Shown piece after piece: positions 23,148-60,900 of a stretch of DNA of 64,000 bases; the first letter of the stretch is position 1, and every line of letters begins with the position of its first letter. The notes below the pieces were generated by a model that did no database searches, was not told where the DNA came from, and saw nothing but the letters and a program-made list of their open reading frames with translations. The stretch covers positions 81,556,142-81,620,141 of the forward strand of contig CM049306.1 in assembly GCA_026874595.1 (NCBI GenBank), read 5' to 3'. This DNA is from Sipunculus nudus. Lineage: Eukaryota > Annelida > Sipuncula > Golfingiida > Sipunculidae. The translations under genes and the position numbers were made by a program.

Positions 23148-23790
23148 TAAATATGCATAAGGAAATTTGTTTTTGTATTTATTTAATACTGCGAGTTTTG
23201 AATACCCCTGCTGTTTTACAGCAAAAGGTTAAATTGTGAATGGCCAACAAGACAATATTGCTTCAGTGTATATATATATATATATAGAATTTGTGCAAGA
23301 GTATTTACATAAACCAAACAATTAAAAGAAAAAACAACTAGGTATCTAAATAAATTTAAACCTTTTATTTTTTTTTTGCCATTTATCAAGACTAAACTCA
23401 TATAGTACCAACTTTGTTCACTAGATGTCAGCTGCAGCTCATTGCTGTTAAATGTACAAACCACTTACATTGAATGCATGTATCCACAATTCCAATTTCA
23501 GGCCCAGATAAACTCCAAGGCACACCTCATGACAAGATTTTATAAAGTCATACATTTTGATGGGTAGTCTGTAAGTCAAAGATGAAATAATCTCTAACAA
23601 GGCCTACAGGCCTAATGCAAACCTGTGCAAAGAGATTACACCAGGTATAATTCTTCAATGCTAGACCATTACTTTTCAAGAACATGTGTAACATGTATAT
23701 GAACAATGCAAGTACTAAACACTTAGAACAAGAAACAATTAAACAAACATCACTGCTGCAATTCTGGCATGGGTTCACACAACACAAAAA

Positions 23791-25065
23791 CTAGAATATG
23801 GGTAGTCAACAAGCGACTACATGTATCCTCCAAAATCAGAGTGGGAAAGGTGAAGTGAGGCATGGATTGAGTGGCAAGGGGAAACAGAGTGAGGTGTGTT
23901 GCATAATTGCCTGGATGTCTGCAGCCAAAATGTGTATGTAGGTTGCGCCACTTACTACAAAATCCAGAAAGCTGTCCAAGATGTATAAACATGCAAAATT
24001 TTAGGCAGATAAGTCAAACCACTACTGAGATATGAGTGATTTTAGCCCATGGCAGACAAACAGATGGACACTGTGCAAAAATGGTGGCAGGTGGCACCAC
24101 CAATTTGTGTATGATTATGAGATATGTGAGATCTATACACATGCAAAATTTCAGGGGGATATGTCAAACCAGTCCTGATATATAAGCCTGAATGTGTGCA
24201 GTGTATACATAAATGTAGGTGGTGCCACCTGCCACAAAAGCAAAAAGCTATCCAAGATGTATAAACATGCAAATTTTAGGCAGATAAGTCAAACCACTAC
24301 TGAGATATGAGTGATTTTAGCCCACGGCAGACAAACAGACGGACACTGTGCAAAAATGGTGGCAGGTGGCACCACAAATTTTGTGTATGATTAAGAGCTA
24401 TGTGAGATCTATACACATGCAAAATTTCAGGGGGATATGTCAAACCAGTCTTGAGATATAAGCCTGAATGTCTGCAGCGTATACATAATTGCAGGTTGCA
24501 CCACCAGTTTCTCGTATGATAAAGAACTATGGGAGATCTATACACATGCAAATTTTGGCCCAACTGGTCAAAGGGTTCCCGATATATGAGCTTGGATGTC
24601 TGCAGCCTAAACGTCAATGTAGGTGGCACCACCTGTCATAAAATCAAGAAAGCTTTCCAGGATGTATACACATGCAAAATTTCAGATGGATAAGTCCAAC
24701 CAATGTAGAGATATGAGTGTTTTTATCTCAAGGCAGATGAACAGATGGACGCTGTGCAAAAATGGTTGCAGGTGGCGCCACCATTTTTAGTGTATGTTAT
24801 AAAGCTTTCCAAGGGCTTCATTTTATGCAAAACCTTTAGCCTTATCGGTCAAACGGTTCCCGAGATATGTGGGTTTATGTGTGGAAAAAGACGCACAAAT
24901 GGATGCTGGGCAGAGAGGAAAGGTCAGAGGTCAACCAAAAATGAGGGCGCAGCAGTTCACATGTGACCGAACATAATTCTAGATTTTTAAAAATTCTGCC
25001 CAGTGGTTATGTAGGAGTTCACCGGAAACCTATGCGGCAATGACGGCAGCGTCTGTTTTGGCGGA
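23791..25065 (-). mobile_element. family-4 Helentron/Helitron-like element nested in copy B
   Basis: On the minus strand the 5' end is TA|TCCGCCAAAAC and the 3' end carries the hairpin GTAGTC-GCTTGTT-GACTAC (23802-23820), then CCATATTCTAG followed by T. That is the Helitron arrangement of hairpin, about 11 nt, CTAG. Copy A of the host element at 935-1000 lacks it and reads straight from GCCAGCTACAAACA into TTTTTGTGTTGT, giving an empty site. Two tandem units of about 275 bp, each with two GGTGGCGCCACC-type boxes, fill the middle (GTGATTTTAGCCCA at 24036 and 24311). Noncoding. Confidence 0.8.
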
Positions 25066-26299
25066 TACAATGATTGTAGCTGGCACCACCAGTCTTATAT
25101 AAAACAAAGAGATATATAAATATGCCCAATGTCGGACTGATATGTCAAACCACTCCTGTGAAATAAGCAGGGACATACACTGTGCAAAAATTATTGTCAG
25201 TGGCACCACCAGTCTTGTACATTATAAAGCTACCCGATATGTATAAACATGCCCAATTTTAGGCTGATGTATCAAATTCCTCTGTAGAAATAAGCAGGCG
25301 CATACACTGCAAAAGTCAATGTAGGTGGTACCACCTGTCTTGTAAAGGAGAATACCATCAAAGACGCATAGACAGGTCAAAATATCAGTCCAATACATCA
25401 AGCTTCCCCAGAGTTTGATGCACTGGACTGACAAGGCTTAGGTGAGTAAGGCAGTTGCCCCCGAGTGACCTGTGACAAATTGCTGCCTCAAGCTACTGCA
25501 CTGAGTGAACTCTTGACCTGCACCTGGCTAGACTGAGTGAACTTTTGACCTGTACCTGGCTGCACTGAGTGAACTCTTGACCTGTTGCATAATCTGACAC
25601 AGTTGGCAGTCTGCCAAAGCTATAAATAGATTCAGGCTGAACTTTGGTGCCAAATATGATGCAGTGAGCAGTCTGGCAAAGCTATAAATAGAATGCAGCT
25701 ACTGCAATGAGTGAACTTCTATACCTGGCTGCACTTCTTCCAATCCTGGCACTGTGCCAAAACTATTTATAGAGCTCACATCATCTTGACTAAAGGCCAA
25801 CTTCAAGGCACTGGCAATCTGCCAGTGGTAAACCAAGTGCTGCCATCTGTACACAAAAGTGGTCCCTACTTGAAATAACTTTGAAATTTATTTTCCCAAT
25901 ACAATATGCTTTTCAGCTGACTTTTTATAAAAAAGAAATCAGGAATATATGTAAAATTATTACGGATGCATACTGGATGCAAAATTAAAATACAGATATA
26001 TCTCATTGATGGCGAATTCTTGAATTAAGTTGAGTAGGGATACCAATTATTTATAATCCACGTACAGTTGTCTTTATATAGCCACAGAGAGCTGAATATC
26101 CATGATTGTAAAATTGCCTGGTATGATGAATAACTTAAATAATAAATCTAAATATTTTAAAAGCTTTTAAAAAAAACTTTCTTGTCAATATTAACCAAAG
26201 ATACCCTGAAATCTAAATGTCTAGTGGCATGATGTAATAGATGCTGATAAACTAGTGCCAGGCTAGATGTAACACAGCTAACATATATGGTAAAATGAC

Positions 26300-27210
26300 T
26301 CAATTCAATCTCCATAATTCAGCCAAAAATCATTCATGTGGAACCATTAATGACAATTATTATAAGAATTATTGTAGGGATTATTCTTGTAAAATATTTA
26401 ACAAACTGGCTTCAGTGGCATCAGTCGAAAAACTTTACGCAGGTTTATAACTCATATAGGAAGATACAGCAAACTGGATAAGTTTAGCTTCCCGTAACTC
26501 AGCCAAAAAGCACAGAACCACAACCATTTGAACAAACTTGAATTATCAACATCTGAGGGTAATTAATGTGTGAGATTTAAGAATTTGGCCCAGTGATTTT
26601 TGTTGAGAAGATCTTTGTAGCCACTGAGCTAAAATGGGCTGTAATGGCACATGACTAAATTCAGCTCCCCATAACTTAGCCAAAAGTCACTGAAAAGATA
26701 CCATTTGAACAAACTTCAGAAAGCACTACCCTAGGATCATTTCTGTGCGATATTAAACATTTTGGCCATATGGTTTCAGAGAAGAAGTTTTTTGTAGCCC
26801 TCAGTGTGATACAGGCACTGATGACCCCATACAAAAAAGGCCGATGCAGATGGCGCCACCAATACCTCAATTTCAGATATGACCTATGTGACCAACATTG
26901 GCATAAAATTTGGTGATGATAGCTCCAGCCGTTTCTGAGATTTAAATTTTAATATGCTTTCTTGCACAGTTGACAAAGGTCAACCACCTGTAACTCGGCC
27001 AAAAATCTCCAAACTGGAACCATTCGAACTTGAGAAATATTGTTCCAGGGATCATTTCTGTGAAATATTGGACAATTTGGCTGTACATTTTCGGAGAAGA
27101 AGATTTTTAAAGCTTTTTTAGCTTTTTCCTTATAAAATCTAAGAAAATGCAGTTAGAAAATAAATAAACAAAATCCGATATAGTTTTAAGGATGACTGAT
27201 TATTTGCAAA
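26300..27210. repeat. diverged tandem array, unit about 175 bp
   Basis: The motif (C)CTCCCCATAACTTAGCCAAAA and its variants appear near 26315, 26490, 26662 and 26985, each followed by GAACCATTTGAAC-like sequence, a GATCATTTCTGTG-like segment and TTTTGTAGCC. Spacings are about 175, 172 and 2 x 160. It forms the 5' third of copy B of family 2. Confidence 0.65.
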
Positions 27211-27304
27211 AAATTTGGTGATGCTAGCTCCTGCCGTTTTTGAGATAGCTATGGTTAACATACAGACGACGCACCATCGCATAAGCTCACAGGTTCGCTA
27301 AAAA

Positions 27305-30185: not shown

Positions 30186-30423
30186 AAAGGTATGGTTCTC
30201 AGTCACTGCCCACATCAATTAAATTCCCTGCATCAAAAATTTTGATTTTGATTATTATCTTTCAAGAAGATAAATAATACAATTTATGCAAAAAAAATCG
30301 TAATATTCATGCTTTTCCCTGATCATATGACATTTTTATCTAAACATACAAAAAAGGTCAAAAATAAAATACTGCCCACCTGCACTAAATTCTGAAAAAA
30401 AGTGCCCGAGAACCATACCTTTT
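30186..30423. mobile_element. 238-bp MITE, family AAAGGTAYGGTTCTC, copy 1
   Basis: The inverted repeat AAAGGTATGGTTCTCAGTCA at the left matches the reverse complement of GTGCCCGAGAACCATACCTTT at the right. The interior shares ATCAAAAATTTTGATTTT, TTTCAAGAAGATAAA, TGCTTTTCCCT and GACATTTTTATC with the copy at 41726. Noncoding; no clear target duplication in the A/T-rich flanks. Confidence 0.8.
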
Positions 30424-32989: not shown

Positions 32990-35900
32990 TTATGCATAAA
33001 CTAAGCGGACGTCATCAGCATCATCAACAAAATCTGCTGTAATCTGCTGGTACTGAAGCTGTAACACACCACTGTTCTTTTTCCTCCATTTTTTTACCGC
33101 AATTCTGATAACAACTGCCAGCAGTAAAACCAATATAACTCCTGATACTGCACCAATCACAGTCCCTTTCACGCCGCCCGGCTTTCCTCCTTTTCGACTA
33201 GGCATGTGGAATTTGTTGTGCATCATATATAGACAGCCTAAGTTGTGGGCTTCGTCAAGAGTCCAGCTGTTACACTGACTTGAATTACAACAGCATATAC
33301 ATGCTGAGCTTCTGAATCCTAAATGCACCTGGAAGTAAGAGTTAATTCACATGACATTAAACTGAAATATAAAAAGCCTAGTTCTGTCAAGGTTGTAAAA
33401 GATTAAAAAGACTGATGTGATCTGAAAGTTATCTGATAAGTATTAGGAATAAAACTTATTGAATAGTTGCAAACAAGAGAACTGCAAGTGTGCCTTATTG
33501 CCTGATACACCCGTCACACTAAAATGTCAATCTGATGACTAATTTAGTCCACGCCATCTGAGTCCAAGTGCAACTCCCCATCTTGGCCACTTGAGTCCTA
33601 TTACAAGTCAAAATCATTTAAGGTTTGAGTCCAAGTCCACCGTCTTTAAGTCCAAGTCTTCTACAGCTCAAGTCCAAGTCCAAGAATAATAAAAATGTCT
33701 TTTTATATTGTCATGTAGATTTTTTATGGACCCGTCGGATCTCTGTACATGCTAGAAAGAACAAGTGACCCATGGGTCATGACGCTCAGCTGACTTGGAA
33801 GAGATTTGCAAAAGGAAATTTTATCATCTGAATGGTAGTATATAACCACTCAACTGAAGCATCAAACAGATTAACCAACAGGCTGAGATTGTGTCTGTAT
33901 TAATATATCTCAAAAATAGAGAAAAAATGAGTAAACTTTAAAACTAGATGTGTCGGAACGACACGAATGCCCCCCCCCCTTGGGCAAATTAGAAACATTT
34001 GTAAAATTTGGAAAATTTTTTAAGTTCAGGAGGTGTCGTATGGTCAAAAGTAGGTCAACAAGGGCAAAATGCAAACTTGATCTGTAACGGTTCATTATCA
34101 AGCAACACACCAAAAATCATGCCAGTATATGCAGGCATTTTGAAAAAAAGTCCATACATGTGCATTTTCCATAAAAATTTCTGTCTTTCATGAAATTTTC
34201 TATGTTTAAGAGCCGTAAAACAATCAAAAGTAGGTCAACCGGGACGAAACGCGAACTCGATCTGTAACTGTCATTATCTGCCCACACAAAAAAAATCAGG
34301 GTGGTATCTGCAGGCATTGAGGAAAAAAAGTCAGTACATATGCATTTGTTATGAAAATTTATATTTTTCATGAAACTTTCTATGTTCAGGAGCAGTCAAA
34401 TGGTCAAAAGTAGGTCAACTGAGACAAAACAAGAACTCGATCTGTAACTGGTCATTATCTGCCTACACACCAAAAATCAGGCCCGTATCTGCAGGCACTG
34501 CGAAAAAAAATCCATACATGTGCACCTTTTTATAAAATTTTCTATGTTAGAGCACAGTCAAACAGTCAAAAAAAGGTCAACTGGGACAAAACATGAACTT
34601 GATCTGTAACTGGTCATTATCTGCCCACACACCAAAAATCAGGCCAATATCTGCAGGTATTGTGAAGAAAGTCTGTACAAGTGTATTTGTCATGAAAATA
34701 TATATTTTATATGAAATTTTCTATGTTCAGGAGCCGTAAAACAGTCAAAAGTAGGTCAACCGGGATGAAATGCGAACTCCCTCTGTAACTGGTCAATATC
34801 TGCCGACACACCATAAATCAGGCCAATATCTGCAGGCATTGCGAAAAAAAGTCCGTACATGTGTATTTGTCATGAAATTTTTCATGAAATTTTCTATGTT
34901 CAGGAGCCGTAAAACGGTCAAAAGTAGGTCAACCGGGACAAAACACGAACTCGATCTGTAACTGGTCTATATCTGCCCACACACCAAAAATTAGGCCAAT
35001 ATCTGCAGGCATTGCGAAAAAAAGTCTGTACATGTGTATCTGTCATGAATATTTCTATTTTTCATGAAATTTTCTAAGTTTAGGAGCCGTAAAACAGTCA
35101 AAAGTAGGTCAACCGGGACGAAACGTGAACTCGATTTGTAACTGGTCTATATCTGCCCACACACCAAAAATCAGGCCAATATCTGCAGGCATTGCGAAAA
35201 AAAGTCCATACATGTGTATCTGTCATGAATATTTCTATTTTTCATGAAAATTTCTAAGTTTAGGAGCTGTAAAACAGTCAAAAGTAGGTCAACCAGGACG
35301 AAACGGGAACTCGATCTGTGGCGGGGGCATAAAAATACAGGTGGCTCCACCAGTCTGCAGAAACTAATAAAAACACTTAATGGTCAATATCCATGCAAAG
35401 AAACATGCTGGTCTCTGGATTATTTGTTCAGGTACTTCAGCTTTTGTATCAAATTTTCCATTATTCTGAGGGATACTTTGGAGTCCTATAGCTTGAAGGA
35501 TATGGGTAACAGAGACCTATTTTCAGGTTTCCATAGACACTTTTCATGGGCCTCCTTGCATGACAAGAATAAAGATTCTAGGTCCAGTTGTTACAATTTG
35601 TACCCTGTTGACAGATAACCACATCTTTAAAGGTCTCAAAATAGAGAAAATAATTCGTAAAAATTTGAAAAAAATAGAGGTGGCACACCCAGTCTGCTAA
35701 AACTGATGGAACATGTCATGATCAATATGTATGCCAAAAATCATGAGCATCAGTGTTGTAGTTATTGAGATACTTGAGTTTTTGTATCAAATTTTCCATT
35801 ATTTTTGGGGGGTATTTTGGAGCCATACAGCTTAATGGATATGGGTAACAGAGACCTAATTTCAGGTTTCCATGGGGATTTTTCATGGGTCTCCCTGTGT

Positions 35901-38900
35901 GTAAAGAAATGAAGATTCTAGGTCCAGTGGTTATGATTTGTGCCATGTTAACAGATGTTCATATCTTTAAAGGTCTCAAAAATAGAGAAAAAAATTAGTT
36001 AAAAATAAAAAAATAGAGGTGGCACACCCAGGCTGTGGAAACTCATGAAACACTCCATGATCAATATCCATGCACACAATTATGGTGATCTCTGCATTAG
36101 TTGTTCAGATACTTCAGCTTCTGTATCAAATGTTCCAGTATTCTGAGCTGTACTTTGGAGTGCCACAGCTCACAGGATATGGGTAACAGAGACCTAATTT
36201 CAGGTTTCCATGGAGACTTTTCATACCGTATTTATTCTAATTTGGCGACCACTTAAAAAAAATTAATTTTCTCAGAGGTCGAGACAATAGAGGATATTTG
36301 AAAATTATCTTCCTGCAGAATTTGCGGTGGTCGAGATTTAAGAGGCACGCGGTTTAATAACCTTCCCTAGAGCCTCAGAGCCGCTCTGACACTCGAACAG
36401 TCATATGAATTGAGTGATAATTTGGTCGTTTATAAGTTTGTTTTGTTAGCTAAACAGTATTTCCCACAAACGGGCTTCCAACCGTCACATGAATTACACA
36501 GTGTCCGCAAATGATTAATAAAACTAAGCTCAATCACTTAACAAAATGATCACTACTTCGCGATAGGTACGATGACATAGAAGGCAACTCATGCAACTAC
36601 CAGTTGTTTCAAGTTAACCCACCAGGCGGCGATATAAAGGGACAAGCAGCTGCACCAAGTTGGAAGAAGACTATAAACTAGATGTGTCGGAACGACACGA
36701 ATGCCCCCCCCCCTTGGGCAAATTAGAAACATTTGTAAAATTTGGAAAATTTTTTTAAGTTCAGGAAGTGTCGTATGGTCAAAAGTAGGTCAACAAGGGC
36801 AAAATGCAAACTCGATCTGTAACGGGTCATTATCAAGCAACACACCAAAAATCATGCCAGTATATGCAGGCATTGTGAAAAAAGTCCATACATGTGCATT
36901 TTCCATAAAAATTTCTGTCTTTCATGAAATTTTCTATGTTTAGGAGCCGTAAAACAATCAAAAGTAGGTCAACCGGGACGAAACGCGAACTCGATCTGTA
37001 ACTGTCATTATCTGCCCACACATGAAAAATCAGGGTGGTATCTGCAGGCATTGAGGAAAAAAGTCAGTACATATGCATTTGTTATAAAAATTTCTATTTT
37101 TCATGAAACTTTCTATGTTCAGGAGCAGTGAAATTGTCAAAAGTACGTCAACTGGGACAAAACAAGAACTCGATCTGTAACTGGTCATTATCTGCCTACA
37201 CACCAAAAATCAGCCCCGTATCTGCAGGCACTGCGAAAAAAAGTATATACATGTGCACTTTTTTATGAAATTTTCTATGTTAGAGCACCGTCAAATGGTC
37301 AAAAGTAAGTCAACTGGGACAAAACGTGAACTCGATCTGTAACTGGTCATTATCTGCCCACACACCAAAATTCAGGCCAATATCTGCAGGTATTGCGAAG
37401 AAAAGTCTGTACAAGTGTATTTGTCATGAAAATTTATATTTTACATGAAATTTGCTATGTTTAGGAGCCGTAAAACAATCAAAAGTAGGTCAACTGGGAC
37501 GAAACATGAACTCGATCTGTAACTGGTCAATATCTGCCCACACAACAAAAATCAGGCCAATATCTGCAGGCATTGTGAAAAAAAGTCTGTACATGTGCAC
37601 TTTTCATGAAAATTTATATTTTACATGAAATTTTCTATGTTCAGGAGCCGTAAAACGGTCAAAATTAGGTCAACCAGGACGAAACGCAAATCCCATCTGT
37701 AACTGGTCTATATCTGCCCACACACCAAAAATCAGGCCAATATCTGCAGGCATTGCGAAAAAAAGTCCCTACATGTGTTTTTGTCATGAAATTTCATATT
37801 TTTCATGAAATTTTCTATGTTCAGGAGCCGTAAAACTGTCAAAAGTAGGTCAACCAGGACGAAACGCGAACTCAATCTGTATCTGGTCTATATCTGCTCA
37901 CACAACAAAAATCAGGCCAATATCTGCAGGCACTGCGAAAAAAAGTCTGTACATGTGTATCTGTCATGAAATTTCATATTTTTCATAAAATTTTCTATGT
38001 TCAGGAGCCGTAAAATGGTCAAAATTAGGTCAACCGGGACAAAACGCAAACTCGATCTGTAACTGGTCTATATCTGCTCACACACCAAAAATCAGGCCAA
38101 TATCTGCAGGCATTGCGAAAAAAAGTCCGTACATGTGTATCTGTCATGAATATTTCTATTTTTCATGAAATTTTCTAAGTTAAGGAGGCGTAAAACGTTC
38201 AAAAGAAGGTCAACCGGGACGAAACGCAAACTCGATCTGTAACTGGTCATTATGTGCCCACACACAAAAAATTGGGCCAATATCTGCAGGCATTGCGAAA
38301 AAAAGTCTGTACATGTGTATTTGTCATGAAAATTTCTATTTTTCATGAAATTTTCTAAGTTTAGGAGCCGTAAAACGGTCAAAAGTAGGTCAACCGGGAC
38401 GAAACGCGAACTTGATCTGTAACTGGTCTATATCTGCCCACACTAAAAATCAGGCCAATATCTGCAGGCATTGCAAAAAAAATCCATACAACTGTTTGAT
38501 TTCGGAAGGACAGAAGGACGGACATGGGTAAAACTATATGCCCCGGGGGCATAAAAATAACTGCCAATTATCAGATAAATTTTATTTGCATAATACGTAA
38601 TAAATACAGGAAAGTAAAGGCACGTTAAAATATGTACGACCAGAAATGATCCTAGCTGGCGTGCCCTCGATTGGGCCCTGTTTTGTATACGCGGTCACCC
38701 ATCCAAAAACCAACCGGGGTCATTTAAACTTAACTAAGATGACCGGTCCAACTGTGTCACAGTTGTTCCACCACGCGTGCTTCCCCGTACTTGGTAAATA
38801 TTATTGCTAATTATCCCACGTGAATTGCAAACGCGACACGTGCGTACCATGAATGGTACACGAGTTTGCTTCGTCACGGACACCCATTTGGAACTTGAAC

Positions 38901-41900
38901 GCTTTATCATGTTTATATATTATAATCAACGCATCTTTGTATCTTCAAAAATTTTATTGCAAACAAGTTTGATGTGGATGCTCAGTGTAATAATAATCTA
39001 GTCAGATACAAATTGCGGTCCCCCATGAGAGACGGAGGCATTACACCTTAACATCGTCGACAGAAAACATCGTCGCCAGTCGCGAAATTAGAGTCATTTT
39101 AGAAATTATGCTTTCAAAATATTTTTTGGGGTCGAGAAATAAGAGGGATCACCAAATTGGAATAAATACGGTAGGTCTCCCCTAGTGTCTAGAATGGAGA
39201 TTATAGGTCCAATTTGAACCCTGTTGACAGATAACTACATCCTTAAAGGTCTCAAAAATAGAGAAAAAAAACTGTAAAAATTTGAAAAATAAAGGTGGTG
39301 CAACCAGTCTGCAGAAACTGATGAAACATCTCATAATCAATATGTATGCCAAAAAATCATGACCATCAGTGATATGGGTAACAGAGACCTAATTTCTGGT
39401 TTCCATGGAGACTTTTCATATGTCTCTCAGAATGTCAAAAAAGAAGATTCTAGGTCCAGTCTTTACGATTTGTGCCCTGTTAACAGATGTTCAGATTTTT
39501 AAAGGTCTCAAAAATTAAGAAAACAATTCGTAAAAAATAAAAAGATTCTACGTCCAGTCTTTATGATTTGTGCCCTGTTAACAAATGTCCACATTTTTAA
39601 AGGTCTCAAAAATAGAGAAAAATATTAGTTAAAAATAAAAAAAATAGAGGTGGCACACCCAGGCTGCGGAAACTCATGAAACACTCCATGATCAAAATCC
39701 ATGCACACAATTATGGTGATCTCTGCATTAGTTGTTCAGATACCTCAGCTTTTGTATCAAATTTTCTATTATTCTGAGCTGCACTTTGGAGTGCCACAGC
39801 TCAAAGGATATGGGTAACAGAAACCTAATTTCAGGTTTCCATGGAGACTTTTTATGGTTCACCCTGTGTGTCAAGGATGAAGATTCTAGGTCCAGTCGTT
39901 ACAATTTGAACCCTGTTGAAAGATAACTACATCCTCAAAGGTCTCAAAAATAGAAACATCTTATGATCAATATGTATGCCAAAAATCATGACCATCAGTG
40001 ATGTAGTTAATGAGATATTGAAGTTTTTGTATGAAATTTTTCACTATTCTGGGGGGTACTTTGGGGCCCCATAGCTCGAAGAATATGGGTAACAGAGACC
40101 TAAATTCTGGTTTCCAAGGAGACTTTACATAGGTCTCTCAGAATGTCAAGAATGAAGATTCTAGGTCCATTATTTATGATTTGTGCCCTGTTAACAGATG
40201 TCCATATTTTTAAAGGTCTCAAAAATAGAAAAAAAAATTCGTAAAAAATAAAAAAATACAGGTGGCGCCACCAGTCTGCAGAAACTAATGAAACATCTCA
40301 TGATCAATATGTATGCCAAAAATCATGACCATCTGTGATGTAGTTAATGAGATATTGAAGTTTTTGTATGAAATTTTTGACTATTCTGGGGGGTATTTTG
40401 GGGCCCCATAGCTCGAAGAATATGGGTAACAGAGACCTAAATTCTGGTTTCCAAGGAGACTTTACATAGGTCTCTCAGAATGTCAAGAATGAAGATTCTA
40501 GGTCCAGTATTTATGATTTGTGCCCTGTTAACAGATGCCCCATAGCTCGAAGGATATGGGTAACAGAGACCTAATTCCAGGTTTCCAAGGAGATTTTTCA
40601 TGGACCTCTCAGGATGTAAAGTAAGAAGATTCCAGGTCCAGTGGTTACGATTTGTGCCTTGTTAATGGACAGATGGCCGGATGGCCGGACGGCCGACGGA
40701 CAAAGAGTGATTGCTATAGCTCAGATGACTTACAGTCAGCTGAGCTAAAAAACTTCTAATGCATGCTGTTTTTTTTTTACATTATTGGTTCTGTTTCAAG
40801 AGCTGATAGACAAAGATGCCACCCAAGCCAAGTGCCAAAGGACCCTTTTTTGATATTTTGTTATTGTTTGCACAAGCTTTTCACGTTGATATTTAAATAT
40901 TCTGTCAGTAGTTAACATATATAATTCTCTATAGGGAATTCCTAAGTCTGAACTTTTAACTTTTCCCTTTTTCTTAGTACTCAAGTTGGACTTGGCCTGA
41001 CTTCCGACTCCAAGTATAAGTGCAACCTCAGGACCTTCGAGTCAAAGTCCCTGAAATGGTGGACTCAAGTTCAAGTCCGGGCTCAAGTCCTTCATGACTG
41101 TATTATCTAATCTGGAATAATCTGTAAATTCTAGTGCAAGAATGTGTTGTTTTACTAAACATGAATTTTATTTACATGTTATTCCTAATAAACTATGATT
41201 AAACCATAGGCTCATTTCAGCACATATGCTGGTATAATGCCTCAATTTCAAGGTTCTGTTCAAACTACACCAGAAAATGATGATTCCACTGAACACAGGC
41301 TTTTTGTTTGGTCTATATCCTCATATTTATAACATGTAGGGGCCAGACAAAATAATCCACAAGCATTCAGCAAGGACATCTGGTGGCAGAGCAGATGAAC
41401 CAGAAATTTGCAAAGGGCCATTTGCAACTAGTGACCTCTCAACTTCTGCATATGTGCAACCAACCACCTCAGGTAGCATGTTCTTCAAGTTTGTCAACAC
41501 TGTCGTATCAGGCATGGATCCAGGATTTTTTGCAGAGAAGGGTCAATGGCCTACATGCATAAGATTTGTCTTAAAAAAGGCTGTTGGTTAAGAGCAGGGG
41601 GTTTCCGGACCCGCAAAACACCCCCCCCCCCCAATCCACGCCTTTGTATGTACCATGTTTACTAACAGCTAATTGATGAACAAACTCTTCCATCTATCAC
41701 ACAGAGGTGTTATAAAGAACTTTTTAAAGGTACGGTTCTCAGGCACTGCCAGCATCAATTTTAAACTCCCGCATCAAAAATTTTTATTTTGATTTTCAAT
41801 AAAAACTTTCCAATTTTGAGCTGCTGCCGCCCCAACATTTCTTTCAAGAAGATAAAACCATACAATTTCCTTTGTTTTGTAGTGCTTTTACTTATTTAGC

Positions 41901-44180
41901 AAAATAAAACTGTTATTTTAATGCTTTTCCCTTATCATTTGACATTTTTATCAAAACATACCAAAAAATTTAAAATAAAAAAAGCACCCGCCCGCATTGA
42001 TTTCTGAAAAAAAGTGCCTGAGAACCATACCTTTTTTTATTTTGGCCTTACCTTTAGTTTATTTATGTGCACATAGTAAGCCAGAAACATGTACACTTTT
42101 AATCTATTTAACAGTGATAACCTAGCTGCGGACACCTATCCTGGGTGGACACACCATTATAACGAAAAAATTGCCCAGTCCTGTGACTGTCCGCAAAAGA
42201 GGGGTTTCGCTGTATTCAATTTTAACTTAAACAGTACAATCATCTACCATAATTTGCCACAGCTCACTGGTGAAACTCAACTTTTTTTTTTTCAAAAGAG
42301 AAAACAAGCCAATTTTCTTACCCTTTCACACCCATCTGTAATGTTATAAGTTCTACATAGGTTATTATCATCACACAGGTCCTGTGCAGAGTCCTTCACC
42401 TCGGCCGAGTCTGTGGCGTCGTTAAATATACTGCCACAGTAGCTGACCTTCTTTGCGCACAGTTTTCGGCCTGAAACACAACAGAAGTTTGAACAGCTAA
42501 AGAACTGCCCACCTGGTATGACTCTGTCATGTATGTTCAGGTATAAAATTTACTGAAACAGGTGTTTAAACAGTCAAGAAGTTTGAACAGCTAAAGAACT
42601 GCCCACCTGGTATGACTCTGTCATGTATGTTCAGGTATAAAATTTACTGAAACAGGTGTTTAAACAGTCAAGACCTCTAATGTATTCAGTCAAATTTTGG
42701 GTTAAGTATTTTGATGGGGTTTTTTTTCATTAAAAGCAATATCTTATGTTTTCAGGTTTACTTTAACTAACAGCAAACAAATACTCCTTTAATATACTAT
42801 GATTCTTCATTTAGGCTGAGGGCTTTGTTCTCTTGTATCTTATTCCGCTCCCATGACCCATTCCATCAACCAATAATGATAATATGGCAATTACAGGGTT
42901 TACAGAAAAAGGTATTAACATAGGCAAAGGATTTTTATACATGTACATAACAAATTTAACTGTTTTTATTTTACATGGACTGCACAAACAGTTATAATAA
43001 TTAATCAAATTACTCTCCATGGCTCGGAAGGTGGCACTGGGTAGCATCTAAGGGTTCGAAAAACCTGGAGAAAACCACTGGTCTTTGACAGGCAACTACA
43101 AGCCACTCACAAGGACACGCCCGTAATTGAACCTGGGTCGCAAGCGGAGAGAGAGAGCCAAACATTTTACCCCTCAACTGTCAAGGCCCTAAGATGAGTA
43201 AGACAAAAAATGAAGATAACCCACCTTTGCTCGAGGCACTTGAGCTCCTGACTCCAGAGTTACAGACGAGTTGTTTTGGTAGTAAATCATGTCCTCTCTC
43301 CCGAGTATTACAGTTGTCTTTAGTGCAACAGAAAATGTGGTACTCTGTCAATTTTACAGTCACCTGTAAAAGTAACCAAGAAATAATTTTAGTAAAAACT
43401 CTAGACTGAGGAACTTACATTTTTGAAGGCATTGCTTTCAACCATATCCCCCTGTCATCGTCAGTAGCCTGGCATGCTCGACCGGCTAACAAGAGTACAT
43501 CAATCAAGACCACAGGACAAAATGGAACTTTTCAAGAAATCAGGTGCCATATATGACATCCAATTTGGTGACTGTGGCAAGCACTACAAAAGTGAGGCAG
43601 CTCACCAGGAACATAAAAAACAAGAGATATCAGCCATTATGAACACAGCAGAAGTGTTGGACACCAGATTTTTTCAAGATCCAAAAGCAGATTCAGTTGA
43701 TATCAGGAGGAAAGTAAAGGGGCCCTTAACATCCAGGACGTGCCTCAAGTTACACCAATTTACAATCACAACTATGAGCTGTTGTCAAGCATGCTACACT
43801 TCTGATTATGATGGTAGGATACAGTATAAAAATACAGCTATAAAAATGTAGGTCCCTGTTTTGATTTTTTTAAATAACAACAGTCTCCAGGGGCAGGACC
43901 CAACGTACATTGTTTTAACCAAGAAATTTATCATTGAAACCAAATCACTTTTCTCTTGATTGCTTTTTCACTGGCTATAACTGCTACATTTTTTTTCTTA
44001 ACCAAGCATTTTTAACTTTATTCAAAATTGAGCACAATATTTGTGAACTTTTTTTTTAATACTTAATATGGATAGAATAGGTGTAAATTTATGATATACT
44101 TGGGCAATATGAGTACATCTCCAGAAAAAATGTCCAATGGACTAGGAGTTTGGTGCACATCTAACTATTTAAGTGCAATA

Positions 44181-46470: not shown

Positions 46471-46820
46471 TTTTTAGCTCAGCTGACTGAAAGTCATCTG
46501 AGCTATAGCGATCACTCTTTGTCCGTCGTCCGTCTGTCCGTCTGTCTGTCTGTCCGTCTGTCCGTCCGTTAACCAGGCACAAATCGTAACCGCTGGACCT
46601 AGAACCTTGTAACTTGGGATTCTGAGAGGTCCATAAAAAATCTCCTTGGAAACCAGAAATTAGGTCTCTGTTACCCATATCCTTTGAGCTATGTGGCCCC
46701 AAAGTACCCCCCAGAAAAGTCAAAAATTCCATACAAAAACTTCAATATCTCATTAACTACTTGACTGATGGTCATGATTTTTGGCATACATATTGATCAT
46801 GAGATGTTACATCACTTCCT

Positions 46821-48540
46821 GCAGACTGGTGGCGCCACCTGTATTTTTCGATTTTTTACGAATTTTTTTCTCTATTTTTGAGACCTTTAAAAATGTGAAC
46901 ATCTGTTAACAAGGCACAAATCATAAAGACTGGACTTAGAATCTTAATTCTTGACACACTGAGAGGTCCATGAAAAATATCCTTGGAAACCAGAAATTAG
47001 GTCTCTGTTACCCATATCCTTCGAGCTATGGGGCCCCAAAGTACCCCCCCAGAATAGTAAAAAGTTTCATACAAAAACTTCAATATTTCAATAACTACAT
47101 CACTGATGGTCTTCATTTTTGGCATACATATTGATCATGAGATGTTCGATCAGTTCCTGCAGACTGGTGGCGCCACCTGTACTGTTTGATTTTTTACGAA
47201 TTTTTCCTCTATTTTTGAGACCTTTGAGGATGCTGTCATCTGTTAGCGTGGCACAAATCGTAACGACTGGACCTAGAATCTTCATTTTCGACACACTGAG
47301 AGACCTATGAAAAGTCTCCATAGAAACCAGAAATTAGGTCTCTGTTACCCATATCCTTCGAGCTATGGGGCCCAAAATTACCCCCCAGAATAGTCAAAAA
47401 TTTCATACAAAAACTTCAATATCTCATTAACTACATCACTGATGGTCATGATTTTCGACATACATATTGATCATGAGATGTTTCATCAGTTTGTGCAGAC
47501 TGGTGGCGCCACCTGTATTTTTCAATGTTCACGAATTGTTTTCTCCATTTTTGAGACCTTTAAGGATGTAGTTATCTGTCAACAGGGTACAAATCGTAAC
47601 GACTGGACCTAGAATCTTCGTTCTTGACACACAGGGAGACCCATGATAAGTCTCCATGGAAACCTGAAATTTGGTCTCTGTTACCCATACCCTTTGAGCT
47701 ATGGCACTCCAAAGTACAGCTCAGAATAATGGAAAATTTGATACAAAAGCTAAAGTATCTGAACAACTAATGCAGAGATAACCATAATTGTTTGCATGGA
47801 TATTGATCATGGAGTGTTTCATAAGTTTCTGCAGACTGGTGGCACCACCTGTATTTGTTCGTTTTTTTTTTACGAAATTTTTCTGTATTTTTGAGACCTT
47901 TAAAGATATGAACATCTGTTAACAGGGTACAAATCATAAAAACTGGACCAAGAATCTTCATTCTTGACACACAGGGAGACCCATGAAAAGTCTCCATGGA
48001 AACTTGAAATTAGGTCTCTGTTACCCATATTCTTTAAGGTGTATGGGTCCAAAATACCCCCCCCCCCCCCCAGAATAATGGAAAATTTGATACAAAAACT
48101 GCAGTATTTCAATAACTACAACACTGATGGTCATGATTTTTGGCATACATATTGATCATGAGCTGTTCCATCAGTTTCTGCAGACTGGGTGTGCCACCTC
48201 TATTTTTTTTCAAATTTTTACGAATTTTTTTCTTTTTTTTGAGACCTTTAAAGATGTTGTTATCTGTCAACAGGGTACAAATCGCAACAACTGGACCTAG
48301 AATCTTCATTCTTGTCATGCAAGGAGGCCCATGAAAGGTGCCTGTGGAAACTTGAAATTAGGTCTCTGTTACCCATATCCTTCAGGCTATAGGACTCCGA
48401 AGTATCCCTCAGAATAATGGACAATTTGATACAAAAACTGAAGTATCTGAACAACTAATGCAGAGATCACCATGATTTTTTGCATGGATATTGACCATTA
48501 AGTGTTTTTATTAGTTTCTGCAGACTGGTGGAGCCACCTG
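46821..48540. repeat. 340-bp tandem array with GGTGGCGCCACC
   Basis: GCAGACTGGTGGCGCCACCT and variants occur at 46821, 47159, 47495, 47831, 48180 and 48520: spacings 338, 336, 336, 349 and 340. Each unit also has TTTTTGAGACCTTTAA, CTGGACCTAGAATCTT, TTAGGTCTCTGTTACCCATA and GGTCATGATTTTTGGCATAC. Confidence 0.95.
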
Positions 48541-48550
48541 TATTTTTGTA

Positions 48551-49718
48551 TCTGCCAAAACGAAGTTTTGCGGATACTATGTTTTTGACCAAGTTCCTCC
48601 ACCGCGGCGGCGTTCGTTTCCAGAGAGCTCCTCGGAGACTAATGGACCGATTTTTCCCAAACTTACACCTATTATCGGGTCACATGTGAACTGGTGCCTA
48701 ACCAATTTGCGTTGACCTCTGACCTTTCCTCTCTATCCAGTGTCCATTTGTGGGTCTGTTTCCACTCATAAACCCTCATATCTCGGGAACCGTTTGACCG
48801 ATCAGGAAATAAAATTGATACAAATGTAGCCCTTGGATTGCTTTATAACATACACAAAAAATGGTGGCGCCACCTGTAACCATGTTTGCACAGTGTCCAT
48901 CTGTTCATCTGCCTTGGGTTAAAATCACTCATATCTCTGCAGTGAATTGACTAATTCACCTGAAATTCATCATGCGTATACATCCAGGATAGCTTTCTTG
49001 ATTTTATGACAGGTGGCGCCACCTACGTTCACGTTCACGCTGAAGACATTCAAGCTTATATCTTAGGAACCGTTTGACCGATCAGGAAATAAAATTTATA
49101 CAAATGTAGCCCTTTGATAGCTCTGTAACATACACAAAAAATGGTGGCGCCACCTGTAACAATGTTTGCACAGTGTCTGTCTGTTAGTCTGCCATGGCCT
49201 AAAATCACTCATTTCTCTGTAGTGGTTCGACATAACTGCCTAAAATTTTGCAGGTTTATACATCGTGGACAGCTTTCTTGATTTTATGACAGGTGGCGCC
49301 ACCTACATTCTAGTTAACGCTGCACACATCCAAGCTCATATCTCAGGAACCATTTGACCGATTGGGCCAAAATTGTGCATGTGTTTAGATCTCACATAGG
49401 TCTTTATCATACACAAAACTGGAGGGGTTACCTGCAAAGATTTTTGCACAGTGTTTGTCTGTTTGTCTGCCATGGGGAAAAATCGCTCATATACATGTAG
49501 TGGTTTGACTTTTCTGCCTAAAATTTTGCAGGTGTATACAACTTGGACAGCTTTCTGGATTTGTGGTAGGTGCCACAACCTACATACACATTTAGGCTGC
49601 AGACATCCATGCTAATATGCAACATACCTCACTCTATTTCCCCTTGCCACTCAATCCATGCCTCACTATCCGATTTTGGCAGATACATGTAGTCACTTGT
49701 CGGTTACCCGTATTCTAG
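48551..49718 (+). mobile_element. family-4 Helentron/Helitron-like element nested in family 1
   Basis: The 5' end is TA|TCTGCCAAAACGAAGTTTTG. The 3' end has GGCAGATACAT (partner of TATCTGCC), the hairpin GTAGTC-ACTTGTC-GGTTAC with two G-T pairs (49689-49707), then CCGTATTCTAG followed by T. It interrupts a 340-bp unit after GGTGGAGCCACCTGTATTTT. The interior holds two units of about 275 bp with GGTGGCGCCACC boxes near 48860, 49015, 49143 and 49288. It matches the reverse complement of 23791-25065. Confidence 0.82.
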
Positions 49719-49933
49719 TTTTCAAAAGTTTACACATTTTTCTCTATTTTTGAGATATATAAATACAGACTAAATCTTGGCCTGTTGGTTAATCTGTTTG
49801 ATGCTTCAGTTGAATGGGTATATACTACCATTCTAATGATAAAATTTCCTTTTGTGAATCTCTTCCCAGTCAGCTGAGCGTCATGACCCATGGGTCACTT
49901 GTTAATAATATGTTTGAACTTAGATGAAAAAAA

Positions 49934-49937
<4 letters not shown>

Positions 49938-49975: not shown

Positions 49976-49978
<3 letters not shown>

Positions 49979-50309: not shown

Positions 50310-50700
50310 ATTTTTTCTAATGTTAGCTTAACTATACATATGTTCATCTGCAGAATTCCAGTCCCGTTCCGGACTACTTAACAGGACAGTATCACACGCT
50401 TCCTATAATTTTATATCCCGGTGTTAACAAGGTCCAGTGTCCACTGCATCTATAGCTGCAGGCCCTGGGTGTGTAATCTTCCCCATTTCTAGGTCATACC
50501 ACCGAGAAACCCCGAAAGTCGCACTCATTTATGCGTGAAGCACGGCCGTTGGGCACGACTTTCACAATTAGCCTGCAGAGCGCTCATCCTGGCCGGGACC
50601 GACCGTGAAAAATCTCACCGCCATGGCTGAGAATCGAACTCACGATCTCCCAGCTTTGATTCCTGTGCTCTATATACCACTTAACCGCAAAAGACGGTCG
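50310..50700 (-). repeat. tRNA-derived SINE, copy 1
   Basis: The minus strand begins with a tRNA-like head: GGTTAAGTGGTATATAGAGC (A-box region) and GTGAGTTCGATTCTCAGCC (B box GTTCGATTC). A body follows with CACGGTCGG, TTTCGGGGTTTCTCGGTG and TCTGCAGATG. The body aligns with 52290-52640. About 380 bp; intergenic between the Ly6-domain gene and ERI1. Confidence 0.7.
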
Positions 50701-54640: not shown

Positions 54641-54915
54641 GTTTTGATTGACAGATACAGATCTGCGGGCAGACTTGGTTCGGCGAAGCCGGGCGGTGGG
54701 TACCAGGACAGATGAAAACAAAGTTTTCAAACCTCCTTCACCGTTACTACTTGAAGACAGAGATTCGTGCTCATGATAACAACATTCTATGAAATAACAA
54801 GTTTGACCCTGAACTTGCAAGCCCTGTTCTGGGCTGCAGTAATCTTACTCCTTCTATTATCGCTCACAGCTGGCGTTTGACATTTCAAAACTCGGCTACC
54901 TTTCCAGACAGAAAC
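54641..54915 (+). promoter_or_regulatory. probable promoter and 5' UTR of ERI1
   Basis: Sequence before the ERI1 start is relatively CpG-rich (GGCGAAGCCGGGCGGTGGG at about 54682), unlike the AT-rich surroundings. This suggests a CpG-type promoter. The start site is not determined and no TATA box is evident. Confidence 0.4.
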
Positions 54916-57900
54916 ATGGCCGAGTGTTTGGAAAGTTGTGTATCAAGCAAAAAAGTAAGACAATTCCGTACTATTGTTTACCTTTGCAAACGTCGTAAAC
55001 CTAACTGAAAGCGATATAGATACATTTACCTTATGAAAATTATTCAGATCAGTTGCCAGAAATGTTTACTTGTAGTAAAATATAATATGATTATGTGAGC
55101 TATAATTTAATAAAAAATTCCATTTTTGAATCATTTCAGTTAATAATCATGTCTACTTTGACAGGCATAGTGTTATTGTATTTATTCCACATTTTATATT
55201 TGTAATTTCATGATTTTAGATTTTCGATAGTTACTAGTATACTATGGTAAAGGTTGAGCCTCTTATTCTACTGTTAGGTGCCTAAAGATTTCTTCATATG
55301 TAGCTTACAAATTAGATAAAAGTCTTTTTGATGTATTGACAGTTGCCCTTAATAGCTCCCCGTGTGCCATAATTTCCTAGTGTCAATAGAGCAGAAAACA
55401 AACAAAAAAATACAATATGACCAATGTAGGATGTATAAAACTTTTGTCTTTACATTTAATTCTCAGGGTTACTTATTTGATCGTATTAACATAGTTTGAC
55501 CAGAACAGGAAGACACTGATAGTAAGTTTTCTATATTTGACAAGCACAGTATTAAAAGGAGGAACATTATACCACAAACTTTAAAATGGAAATCTAGGTT
55601 AACATAATTAATTACATAGTGGTATGGATATTATAGTAAAATGAATGCATACTGCAGTGCATAGTGTAATTTTACATTTAAGTATATTATCATATACATT
55701 ATATGGTAAAACAAATACTGGTAATGCTATTATCATGGGGAATATAGGGGCCTGATGGATTTATTGTAGTGATCTCTGCATTCAACATTGCATCCTGAGT
55801 CCACCAAAATTACACTTTAAGGAGCACCTTTTTGTTGTATATTGTATGAGTGTTTTATGTTTATTCAGAACCCATATAACCTAGGCCAGAGACATAAGAA
55901 GGGGTGGTGGTTTCTCTCTTATGTGGCTGATGCTAGTGCAGTCCAATTAGGCACTTGATGTAATTAGCACCGCTGGTAATCTCTTCAGAGGTGATGCCCA
56001 TTAAGGCCATCAGATCAGCTCTATGCACTCTACACAGATTACACAGATGATAGCAACTGAAGTACAGCTGACACTAGACACCACAACAGAATCTATTGTG
56101 ACAATAAACAAAATGACTTTGCAGAGCATATCAAATAGTTTGATATATTGGGAATAATATAAACTTCAATTTTATTTCTGTAATCTCTGTTTTACTGTCA
56201 TCTGAGCTATAGTCGTGGTCCTTTGTCCGTCGTCCGTCCGTCCGTTAACAGGGCACGTTTTAAAACCGTTGGACCTACGAATCCAAAATTCTGCATACCA
56301 TTAGATGTCCCCAAAATCTCCTACCATACCGAAAATTGGGTCATTAGAACTTCGTTCCTTCGAGATATTAAGGAAAAACCTCCGTTTTCCATAAAAAAGC
56401 AATTGTTACACTTCAAGTCTGCCTAATATCAAAACCACTGATCTGTTTTTGATCATATTTAGTATTCATATTCTTCCATACATTTTCTGTGCACTTACCA
56501 AAAATTAAGTCAGTATTGGGTATTATTTTGAAGTTATAGGCCAAAATATAATGCAATTTTTTAAAAATCAGGAAATATATTTGCTCACTTAACATGAGAA
56601 TTGCTGAAGCTGAAGACTTTTTTTCAGGAATATAACTTTATTTAATCAAGATTCAATTGTTTGCCCAAAAATTAGATCTGAATTTTGCAAATTTTTCAAG
56701 TTTTTAGCATAAATAAAAAATTAATACTTTAAATTTTGTCCAACTTTGGCAGTGGCACGTTTTTTCCCTGTAAGCACTGTTGATTTAATTTTCACAGCAT
56801 ATATACATAAGGATTTAATCTTTTAAAATCTGAAATTTCAAAGAAATTGTTTGATAAGAGTAGCTTTTATTCAAGTTTTCATACACCATGTTAAGTGTTG
56901 TTTATATCTGGCCCACCTAGTAGTACAGCCTTCACTTGCATTATGTAACCCACCCCAGGCAGCTTGCCTTGACCCAGCTTGGCCACTACTAGCAGGCTTC
57001 TCCTCTGCCCTGCACTCAACCCCCCCCCCCCAACTGGTGCATAAACTAGATGAATGTTATAATTTTCTGTATTTTATTTTATTCTTGGACATGCTACATT
57101 TTAGATTTTGTATTGTACCACCAGGGTTACAATGATTAAAGTGCACATTTAATTGTGTCCACAAAGTGATGTATTGCTATGAAAGTATGGATGTTCATCA
57201 GATAAGTAATGCTTTACTTCAGAAGAGTAAAACTTCACCAGGTGTGAAATTGACTATTAATTCCAGTTATTAATTATAGCTGAGATTATAATTAGCATAA
57301 TGATATTGTTTGTCTCTCATTCAACCAACAGTGTGTATACTTTATTTGAAAAGATGTTTTTATTTTATCAAATTTATTGAATCTTTTATTTTATTTCGGT
57401 GAATAAAATAAAGCTTGTCCTGAAAACTCCAATGTGCAAAACTTTTTAATAGGAATTCAAGGAATAATTTTGTAGATGCCATGTTGTGGCATTATTTTCT
57501 TTTACATTCAGTTTAAACATTTGATTTAAAAATAATAAAATATATGTGTATGCATAATATGACCCAATGTGAGCTACAATCTGGATATAAATAGGCTTAT
57601 ATATAAACTTAAATGCATTATTCCTTTGAAAGTGAAATGAAGGTATTAGTCCATTCTGTCCACTTGCCTGTCCATCTGTAAATTTTTCATATGCATCACA
57701 GTATCTCAAAACTTTTACTGTTTTTCTTCATGACAGTCTTGTCAGAGTATTAGTTTGCAATCATATATTGAGAACTTTACTATAACCAAGTAGGAGGGCC
57801 CTTTCCTCTTAGCTTCTCATATGCTTATATAAATATAATACATTACAATAGAATATTTTTCATATTTTGCATTTGCAAAATTGTCAAACTTTTGTCGTGA

Positions 57901-60900
57901 CCCATGGGTCCTTTGTTTATATTCTGGATTCTCAACATCATTGTTTGGCTAAAACTGAATAAATACCAGACATGGTGCAAATACTTTGCAAATGTATATG
58001 AATATGAATATGAATATGTACTCCATTATAAAATTTCTTGCATAAGAATGGGAATTCAGGTAAAAATGAAAGTATTTGAATACCAGTGCAAATACTTTCA
58101 AAATGTATTCATGAATGCATATATTCTATAATATTATTTTAATAATTAGTTCAGTTAGATTTTATTAAAAAAATCATATGATTGTCTTATTATTTTTAAT
58201 AAAAATTATATTGGCACAATATTTGTTATTAAATTTTAATAAATAGTTAAACTCTTTTATTATATGTGCTGCTTATAAGTTATATGGCCAAGTCAAAATC
58301 TGTGTGACAATAGCACTCCATTTGTTAATAAAATAAATGAAATCAATCCTCTTCCCTGTCTCCAAAAATACTATCAAAATCATACATAAGCTAAACACCA
58401 ACAACTCATAATAAAGCTTATATTTATTACCACACAAAACCAGCATATGCCTGTTTCCCAAATCATATTTTTTATCCTATATAACAGCTGAGCGCCGTGA
58501 CCCATGGGTCCCTTGTTTTTTGTTTGAGAGGGTTTCAAATCTGCGATATTCATGAAAGAGAAATTATCATGAAAATAAAACTTTCATTAATAAAGAACCT
58601 CACCTCAGTTTAACATTCCTTGATGCTTTAGTCTCATTTTCAGAAGTAAAAGGGATTTGTACTTTGAATGATGATAAAAGTATATCATTTATATATCAAC
58701 TTCCAGTTATGAAAAGAATTTCCACTATTTACATGTTTGATTGGGTTTTCTTCAAATTGTCATTTTTACATATTAAATGATGAATAAAAGACAGATATAT
58801 TCTGTGTAAGGCACTCTTTGCTAGGACCATGAAAATGAAACACTTGTGAATCAGTGAAATAGTAAAAATTGGAAAAATAAACCTCACCTATTTGATGCCA
58901 ACCACAGTATTTCTATTAAAGCTGCCGAGTGTGAATATTTATTGTTTTTTTTTTTATAAAAGGATAGATTAATGGCCTGTTGGTGGCACTCACTGTACTG
59001 AATGAGGATGAAGGTATCCATATGATCAGAATGATATGATATTTTTAAGCCTTATGAATTTATATAAACCTTATAAGGTTTTATATGGATGGGGTAAGGA
59101 ATAATCCATAAGTCATAACCTGTCATTTAGACATTAGAGCGAATCTCTGAGGTTCTATAAATAGGTTTCACCATTATGCCAATTAGGCTCCAGCGGGGTA
59201 GAGCCAGGTACCTTTAGATCAAACTCCAATGCCTTAACCACTAGACTACATCCTACCCCTGTGTGTGCATAACTTTCAAATACAAAACTTTTACATCAAC
59301 ACGATTAGTCTGTAAGACTTATGTATAGGTGAATGATAACAAGCGTAATAGTACTGTTACATTGATGTTCTTTTTAATGTTCAAGAGTTTAAAGGATTGA
59401 TGATATGTCAGTGATGTTAATATTTATATAAAACAGTTTATTCATAGTTGATGTCATTAATAACAAATGAGTAGAGTTAATGACCAGACACTTCAAATAA
59501 TGAATTCACAATTATTTATGTTTGGCTACTTCCAAGTCAGCAGAGTTTGGCATTTATGGTAAATGTCTTACCTTAGGCAGGTTAAATTTGATGGAAATGA
59601 CAGATGGACAAACAAAAATTGTCTTTGAAGTCAAAACAACATTAACGTTTAATGTAATTTGCCTTTTAATTTCTCCAAGAGATAAGTCCATATATTAGTA
59701 ATAATACCACAATATCTTAAATTAACAGTAAATGGTGTTTCAAATACAAATAAAATGAGAAATGATACACAAACATTTACACATACTCATTATTCAACAC
59801 ACAATAAGCATGCAAAATAATCCTGTGAAAAACACTTTATAATCAAGGCACAGATTGTTGATTTTTTTAGACAACTAAAGATATATGCAGGGCAAGTGAA
59901 AGTTAGACATGTGGGGCAAGCAAAACGTAGCTCTGGTCATAATAAAAAAAACAGGTAGAGGAGCCGGTTCAATCATTCAGGTTTTACCTGTGTCACCATA
60001 ACAGACACCTCACCATAACAAATTAACAAATTATGATCTACCGGTCAACCTGCCTCAACTGTCAAGCCTGGACCAGTGATCAATCACTAATGAACACAGT
60101 TCAAGAGACTTAACACTGTCACCAATTGAGACAGGCAGAAAATCAAAATGATTTACAAACCTGAGAACTGCTTTCAGTTAATTTATAGTTTAATTAGTTC
60201 ATTTAAGAATTCATTGATTTGACATAATGCAACAATCTGACTGACTGATGTATATTAACAAATATATGATGATGGTGTACCAGTAAACAGGATGTTGTGA
60301 TTCTACTTATGTTGTATATACATGTAGGCAAACCAAGGAGCACCTGTTAAAAGTACAGTATAGGTGATCTGCTTCCTTACTGATGGTCAGTATACGTGAA
60401 TTTAGCTCAGTCACAGACAGTTCTTGGTGGTAGGCTTTGATAAAAATGATTTAAAAATTATACAGGGTTTTATAAGTAAAATGATAGATGAGTAATATAC
60501 TTTAAAGCCAGCTATTCACCTACTATTTCTATAGAATTTATAGTGATTTCTGGCTTACCCTGCATATATATTAATGAAATATAGGTAATTTCTGTTCTTA
60601 TAATGCTTTTTAATCAGTTCTATTAGCTCTTGTTTATCTACAAGCTGTTAGTAAACACAGCAATGTTGACAAACAGAGGTTGTTGCCCTCCTCACCTTGT
60701 GGACCTCATGTTTTCTCCTTGACTCTGCTAGCTGTGCTATCTCAGCATCTACTGCACCTCTGTGTGCAGCTGCATGCCACATTTAGGTATAAACAAAATG
60801 AACAGCCTATGTGCTGTTGATTTGGCATTTTTGGGCAAATTTTATAAAAGATTCAAGGGATAATCTTTAGTTAATAAATGTCAGGTATTGGAATAGGCAC

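Follow-up and report, generated by a model that had tools for sequence, protein, structure and literature searches.

A 64,000-bp stretch of the Sipunculus nudus genome (GCA_026874595.1, contig CM049306.1, here C1, positions 81,556,142 to 81,620,141; "the window" throughout) carries four families of repeats, F1 to F4, which to judge by their ends are very probably HINEs (Helentron-associated elements: derivatives of Helentrons that are non-autonomous and here carry satellite DNA), with F1, F3 and probably F2 each tied to a Helentron lineage of its own. Helentrons are rolling-circle transposons with a Rep-helicase protein that has a C-terminal apurinic/apyrimidinic (AP) endonuclease. HINE membership of all four families is supported, as are separate cognate lineages for F1 and F3; a separate lineage for F2 is weakly supported. 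The window, from a genome of 1.43 Gb, has a GC content of 36%, two open reading frames (ORFs) of at least 150 aa and 45 tandem-repeat rows. A previous interpretation made from the letters of the DNA alone (the sequence-only reading) had held that the families encode no protein, and a tblastn search of the window (E up to 0.01) with seven Rep, helicase and endonuclease pieces of partner proteins agrees, having found no coding remnant; a plasmid search gave no match.

Termini shared with Rep-bearing loci

The end motifs listed in the sequence-only reading do occur at the kind of place claimed for them: AGCTCAGC at the 5' end and GACCCATGGGTC then CTTG at the 3' end of F1, AGCGAACC and GGCCTGTAGGCCTTG in F2, ATGCCCCC and the hairpin GTGTCG-CGACAC then CTAG in F3, and TATCYGCC and CTAG in F4. 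Read in element orientation, with a slash for the element boundary, F1 runs from TTTTT/AGCTCAGCTGACTGAAAGTCATCTGAGCT through a GTCC microsatellite to AGTCAGCTGAGCGTCATGACCCATGGGTCACTTG/TT, F2 from TTTT/AGCGAACCTGTG to CACAGGTTTGCATTAGGCCTGTAGGCCTTG/TT, F3 from TTTTT/ATGCCCCC to GGGGGCATTCGTGTCGTTCCGACACATCTAG/TTT, and F4 from T(G)/TATCYGCC to GGCAGATACATGTAGTC, then CTAG/TTTT. The inverted repeat at the 5' tip matches its partner inside the 3' tip at 12/13 positions in F1, 10/12 and 11/12 in F2 and 8/8 in F3; pairing of the subterminal inverted repeats (subTIRs) of F4 is 8/8 in the copy at 48.5 kb and 7/8 in the copy nested in F2. F1, F3 and F4 also have, at the 5' end, an inverted repeat that complements the subTIR; in F2 none was seen by eye.

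The Helitron Rep domain (PF14214) has 143 matches in the genome, some of them two pieces of one locus. The 3' flanks of 33 Rep loci, a sample chosen for long frames and then for variety rather than at random, were scanned on both strands with one regular expression per family. Endonuclease similarity placed 21 of these loci in the F1 lineage (L067 by a sequence of 27 aa only) and seven in other lineages (L039, L040, L069 and L074, forming group A; L050 and L052; L053 with L073), leaving five unplaced (L046, L062, L063, L064, L066). The F1 terminus is present in sense in 18 of the 21 F1-lineage flanks, in none of the seven from other lineages, and in one of the five unplaced (L046). Counted as tips, 22 are sense, in 18 loci, versus one antisense (L051); the background is one F1 tip in loci L001-L038 (136 kb) and three in the window (64 kb). 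Fisher's test gives 0.0001 for 18/21 versus 0/7, and 0.0006 for 18/22 versus 0/6, values that are not true probabilities because the Rep loci are related. The distance from endonuclease to tip is fixed within each F1 sub-lineage, at 1106-1108 bp (five loci), 604-608 bp (five) or 289 bp (three), leaving out L057, L058 and L071, which were wrong hits of a loose endonuclease motif. The C17 locus (L045 plus L042) is a candidate F1 Helentron, with 14.2 kb separating its F1 ends and a frame of 2,342 aa between them; Rep and PIF1 domains of Pfam are over cut-off in this ORF, and Exo_endo_phos is below it (21.4 vs 24.5 bits).

The same C17 ORF (L045, reverse complement 6626-9998) has a Herpes_teg_N-like domain (herpesvirus tegument N-terminus) before Rep (E 3.9e-12); deubiquitinase domains of this type have been published for Helentrons (PMC9741609).

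The F3 terminus lies 3' of the endonuclease in both loci read, L050 and L052, at 388 bp in each, and the two are 99% identical up to the F3 tip and different beyond it. Upstream, L050 has the F3 5' tip, TTTTT/ATGCCCCCGCCACA, followed by an F3 array (84% over 1,244 bp). The F3 tips of this locus thus lie 12.0 kb apart (C3:41766495-41778497, minus strand; read except for 3,235 bp between Rep and endonuclease), and the element has the right structure but is at most a candidate for a working one. The F2 terminus was found at a single locus, of a lineage sister to that of F1, 1.8 kb after the endonuclease and behind F2-type repeats and an F4 start; two closer relatives of this F2-lineage Rep in the genome (74% and 79-84% identical) are both broken by stops, and the other matches listed are at most 63% identical. 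The search for Rep-bearing elements with the same ends, which the sequence-only reading had suggested, has in this way been answered for F1 and F3, and by one locus for F2.

End type goes with lineage. The F3-lineage Rep is 47.5% identical to that of group A and 34.0% to that of the F1 lineage, and the Rep of the F2 lineage is nearer to the F1 lineage (56.3%) than to group A (36.4%) (the Pfam scan of the F3 and F2 lineages covered the Rep part only). In a 15-row Rep tree, five F1-tip Reps group together (96/91; three of the five rows are nearly identical) and adjoin the F2-tip Rep (100/100 jointly), and two F3-tip Reps form another group (100/99); the tree carries a long-branch warning that includes L035 and L075.

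Group A Helentrons account for 23 of the 30 first-fetched Rep loci, all in one cluster, with some ORFs longer than 2,200 aa and, in L039, PIF1 and Exo_endo_phos domains over cut-off. As a common helper they are disfavoured, since none of the four tips occurs in the four flanks read (L039, L040, L069 and L074, the first and last of these nearly identical). The 3' end of group A was not found, L039 and L074 being 99% alike throughout the 2.5 kb compared.

Boundaries, hairpins, arrays and nesting

In all seven elements for which both tips are present (two F1, one F2, two F3, two F4), direct repeats at the ends are limited to 0-4 T's, as expected from the earlier statement that target duplications are absent. 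The targets are oligo-T: the base 3' of the tip is T in 18/18 F1-lineage loci (TT in 15) and in 8/8 F2 copies. A 390-bp probe extending 20 bases past the F3 tip of L050, with CTAG ending at query 370, gave 39 non-self places among the best 40 of 376 candidates, of which 31 end at the tip (query 368-377), eight earlier and none beyond. By eye, the sequence differs after the tip in all eight F2 copies, the window's included, and after the F1 tip among Rep-locus termini. The best 39 non-self F2 matches are 95-98% like the window copy, and the 3' end of the plus-strand F1 element is found at 99-100% over 102 bp in the best 40 of 1,277 candidates. The sequence-only reading had named similarity continuing past the tips as the finding that would tell against it; F3 shows none, and F4 in its F1 setting does, in all 40 copies scored (best 40 of 827).

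The 3' hairpins it described are present, as a palindrome or stem-loop before the tip, in F1 to F3; in F4 the hairpin is degenerate at 49.7 kb and intact in the copy nested in F2. As folds most are weak, with z values against shuffles of 0.02 for F1, -1.5 for F2, -3.5 for F3 and -1.3 and -2.3 for F4, so that the energy clearly beats shuffles in F3 and one F4 copy only. The F1 palindrome, GACCC…GGGTC or GGCCC…GGGCC, recurs in 22 termini (three in the window, 19 at Rep loci) with a few broken copies, and one of its pairs is A-T in eight and G-C in seven of 15 distinct rows, a double change; none of 500 shuffles reaches the percentage paired or the number of double-change cells, in rows that are related.

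Tandem arrays occur in all four families as claimed, and the Helentron/HINE architecture of subterminal inverted repeats, 3' hairpin and oligo-T targets holds. To call the families unrelated in sequence was too strong, because the F2 and F4 arrays are homologous (scores of 442-594 vs at most 193 in shuffles) and the comparison of F1 with F4 is mixed (304 vs a shuffle value of 223 for one F4 array, 190 vs 213 for the other). Homology between F1 and F3 arrays was not accepted, the sense and antisense scores (376 and 325) being close, though both exceed the shuffles' 308. The homology of the F2 and F4 arrays cuts across the lineages defined by ends, which implies that cargo and ends had different histories.

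Both F4 copies and one F3 sit nested within F1 or F2. In the two F1 copies the insertion point is the same, directly behind GGAGCCACCTGTATTTTT where the F1 array ends, with F4 in one copy and F3 in the other; L065 has an F4 start at that F1-array point, and L045 has an F1-type 5' end slightly farther on, past a few bases and a single T-run. Nested elements seem to have landed repeatedly at the T-run that follows GCCACCTGTATTTTT in units of the F1 array (35330/33945 and 48549/49718 in the window, 1729 in L065, 516 in the reverse complement of L045). An F2 relative at the start of the window represents the empty site of the F4 found inside F2. A probe for the F4/F1 junction matched at 99-100% over all 201 bp in the best 40 of 827 first-look candidates, and a 603-bp F2/F4 probe matched with at least 95% identity through the F4 tip in the best 40 of 6,108; both counts include the window's own copy and, with 40 scored per search, are uninformative on copies that lack the nest. 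The F4 tips are kept as real because the same ends recur in three different contexts (F1, F2 and L045). On this comparison F4 was probably mobile at one time and is now, at least in part, also cargo within F1 and F2.

In L056 (520-760) a Helentron of the 289-bp spacing type is inserted in sense into an F1 array, placing a Helentron gene ahead of an F1 HINE terminus. Such an arrangement is a possible route to end exchange.

Alternatives and a possible mechanism

One possibility, favored in the sequence-only reading, is that all four families are served in trans by a single Rep/helicase system. Their common overall architecture and oligo-T targets would fit this, as would the 95-98% likeness of F2 matches when stops break both of the closer relatives that the F2-lineage Rep has; no F4 partner was found, and some other lineage could mobilise F2 and F4. 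We nevertheless regard a single system as unlikely. The F1 and F3 termini are on separate Rep lineages (18/21 flanks for F1 and 0/7 elsewhere; both loci for F3), the Reps of these lineages are 34% identical, and by eye their terminators have nothing in common except the hairpin and a TTG/TAG tip. With two or more of the four families having the ends of distinct gene-carrying lineages, the set does not look like one shared system. The proposal is not supported for F1 and F3; cross-mobilisation of F2 or F4 may occur.

Another possibility is that Helentron genes merely landed beside or inside HINEs, so that the adjacent ends are not theirs. Nesting is common: L056 lies within an F1 array, the 5' end of L045 is in one as well, and the F2-lineage locus is in a nest. 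The F1 termini, however, are in sense in 18/21 flanks, at 22 sense tips vs one antisense, with spacing fixed per sub-lineage, and between the two F3 loci 99% identity extends from the endonuclease as far as the tip and is lost beyond it, with both F3 tips flanking the C3 locus. Chance landing is thus already disfavoured for F1 and F3, and overall we would give it very little credence. That the families are ordinary satellites or miniature inverted-repeat transposable element (MITE)-like DNA transposons with chance end hairpins scarcely merits consideration: tandem arrays do occupy much of each element, and the hairpins of F1, F2 and one F4 fold little or no better than shuffles, but the boundaries are sharp in unrelated flanks, target duplication is absent, the inverted repeats are asymmetric, and the same terminators occur on Rep-bearing elements.

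Several observations do weigh against HINEs with lineage-specific Helentron partners. The F1 tip is missing in three of the 21 F1-lineage flanks (L043, L059, L070), and the count becomes 18/22 if L053 is included, whose endonuclease is 43.9% identical to the F1-lineage probe, like those of L056 (44%) and L061 (42%); L053 was set apart because its Rep is 56% identical to the rest of the lineage, vs 73% for the L056/L061 type. For the F1 lineage, L045 alone yielded a 5' end; this end, which comes with a nested F4, is located within an F1 array and is for that reason weaker evidence than the 3' ends, and L044 has no F1 5' end in 10 kb. The number of F1 hairpin pairs with a double change (one) is reached by 383 of 500 shuffles, and that change may be one inherited event. 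For F3, the Rep frame of the C3 locus (L050) is 964 aa and its endonuclease stretch contains a stop; for F2, the link is one locus with a nested F4 present, and 7 kb upstream of it, a nest of F1 pieces, hold no sense F2 5' end. F4 is without a partner, none being found in the 33 Rep-locus 3' flanks read. Away from the tip, the HINEs do not closely match the Helentrons found here, which may not be their immediate helpers: F1 shares just 31-35 bp at the 3' end with them. Partners described in PMC4067079 are more than 95% identical in Culex and 98% in Drosophila, a report on named species rather than a definition of the family, and here identity is limited to the terminator (31-35 bp) and, in F3, also the 5' tip and the array at 84%.

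On the reading of lineage-specific partners, F1, F3 and probably F2 each keep a 3' terminator of about 31 bp (F3 also the 5' tip and array), which the Rep of the lineage would be expected to recognise. Following the published model, the cognate Rep would nick at the 5' T/A junction, the helicase would peel the strand off as far as the 3' hairpin, and the peeled strand would be joined into an oligo-T target without duplication; the partner elements themselves would presumably transpose by rolling circle, and the Helentrons found here would be the actual helpers. A broader proposal, for which we see about an even chance, is that each of several Helentron lineages has a private 3' end code of about 31 bp, made up of an inverted-repeat half, hairpin and tip, and that HINEs need little beyond this code and a 5' module. 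Arrays and nested elements would then be swappable between lineages, end and helper would co-evolve, and F4 would represent a late step, spreading as cargo of F1 and F2.

Window features and known relatives

Table 1. Elements and relics of the four families in the window (positions from the first base of the window; a slash marks the element boundary)
Feature	Position	Strand	Remarks
F2 3' part without F4	1..1180	+	3' end at 1178; empty site of nested F4 at about 980-990
F2 HINE	23598..27299	-	AGCGAACCTGTG ... CACAGGTTTGCATTAGGCCTGTAGGCCTTG/TT; nested F4
F4 element nested in F2	23791..25067	-	5' limit uncertain by 1-2 bases
F1 HINE, second copy	33762..40746	-	F3 nested near 3' end, another F3 inside
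F3 HINE, 1.39 kb	33944..35330	-	~180-bp array; nested in F1 after GGAGCCACCTGTATTTTT
F3 HINE, second copy, 1.88 kb	36678..38552	-	
F1 HINE	46476..49901	+	5' subTIR AGCTCAGCTGACT, inverted repeat, GTCC microsatellite, ~336-bp array, nested F4; 3' subTIR, palindrome, CTTG/TT
F4 element, 1.17 kb	48549..49718	+	~280-bp array; nested in F1; belongs to amplified F1+F4 composite
F1-type palindrome relic	57899..57915	+	
F1-type 3' terminus, older variant	58485..58515	+	31/31 bases identical to terminus of Rep locus L041

The 3' tips at 57899 and 58499 could not be paired with a complete 5' end. Two F1-type 3' termini stand in series both here (57899-58515, 600 bp apart) and in L047 (reverse complement 1398-1461, 45 bp apart), a result of either terminator read-through or insertion beside an old tip. 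F1-like 5' end relics occur at 10073 (minus strand) and 56197 (plus strand), with no matching 3' end seen near them. Tandem duplications at 19132-19272 (45 bp x 3.1) and 42483-42673 (94 bp x 2) are probably recent, as their matches are 100%.

HINEs were defined in PMC4067079, and the families here resemble the HINE/DINE-1 elements and Helentron partners of mite, Culex and Drosophila treated there in their subTIRs, 3' stem-loop, TT targets and tandem repeats, and in having a Rep/helicase/endonuclease partner. They are also like Cg_HINE of the Pacific oyster (PMC7492417), with its left module of subTIR, complementary inverted repeat and GTCC-type microsatellite, central satellite-like array, right module of subTIR and palindrome, oligo-T targets without target-site duplication, and several unrelated families per genome. 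By description, the bivalve Pearl/CvA elements (PMC7492417, PMC11136912), whose end modules enclose central repeats of about 160 bp, are similar; PMC10294476 is further related literature. The oyster study reports 11 HINE families and states that none of its ten autonomous Helentrons could be related to them (PMC7492417). In the worm, unlike that report, HINE ends are seen on Rep-bearing elements and nested composites amplify as units. Among the titles and abstract openings covered, with subscription journals outside the scope and no proof of absence implied, there was no report of partners for bivalve HINEs.

HINEs spread satellite DNA through bivalve genomes, and in oyster the helpers were reported to be unresolved. 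Once ends are assigned to Rep lineages, the question of helpers can be tested, and the short 3' terminators are available as substrates for tests of Rep specificity. The matches made here suggest that several Helentron lineages exist side by side in one genome.

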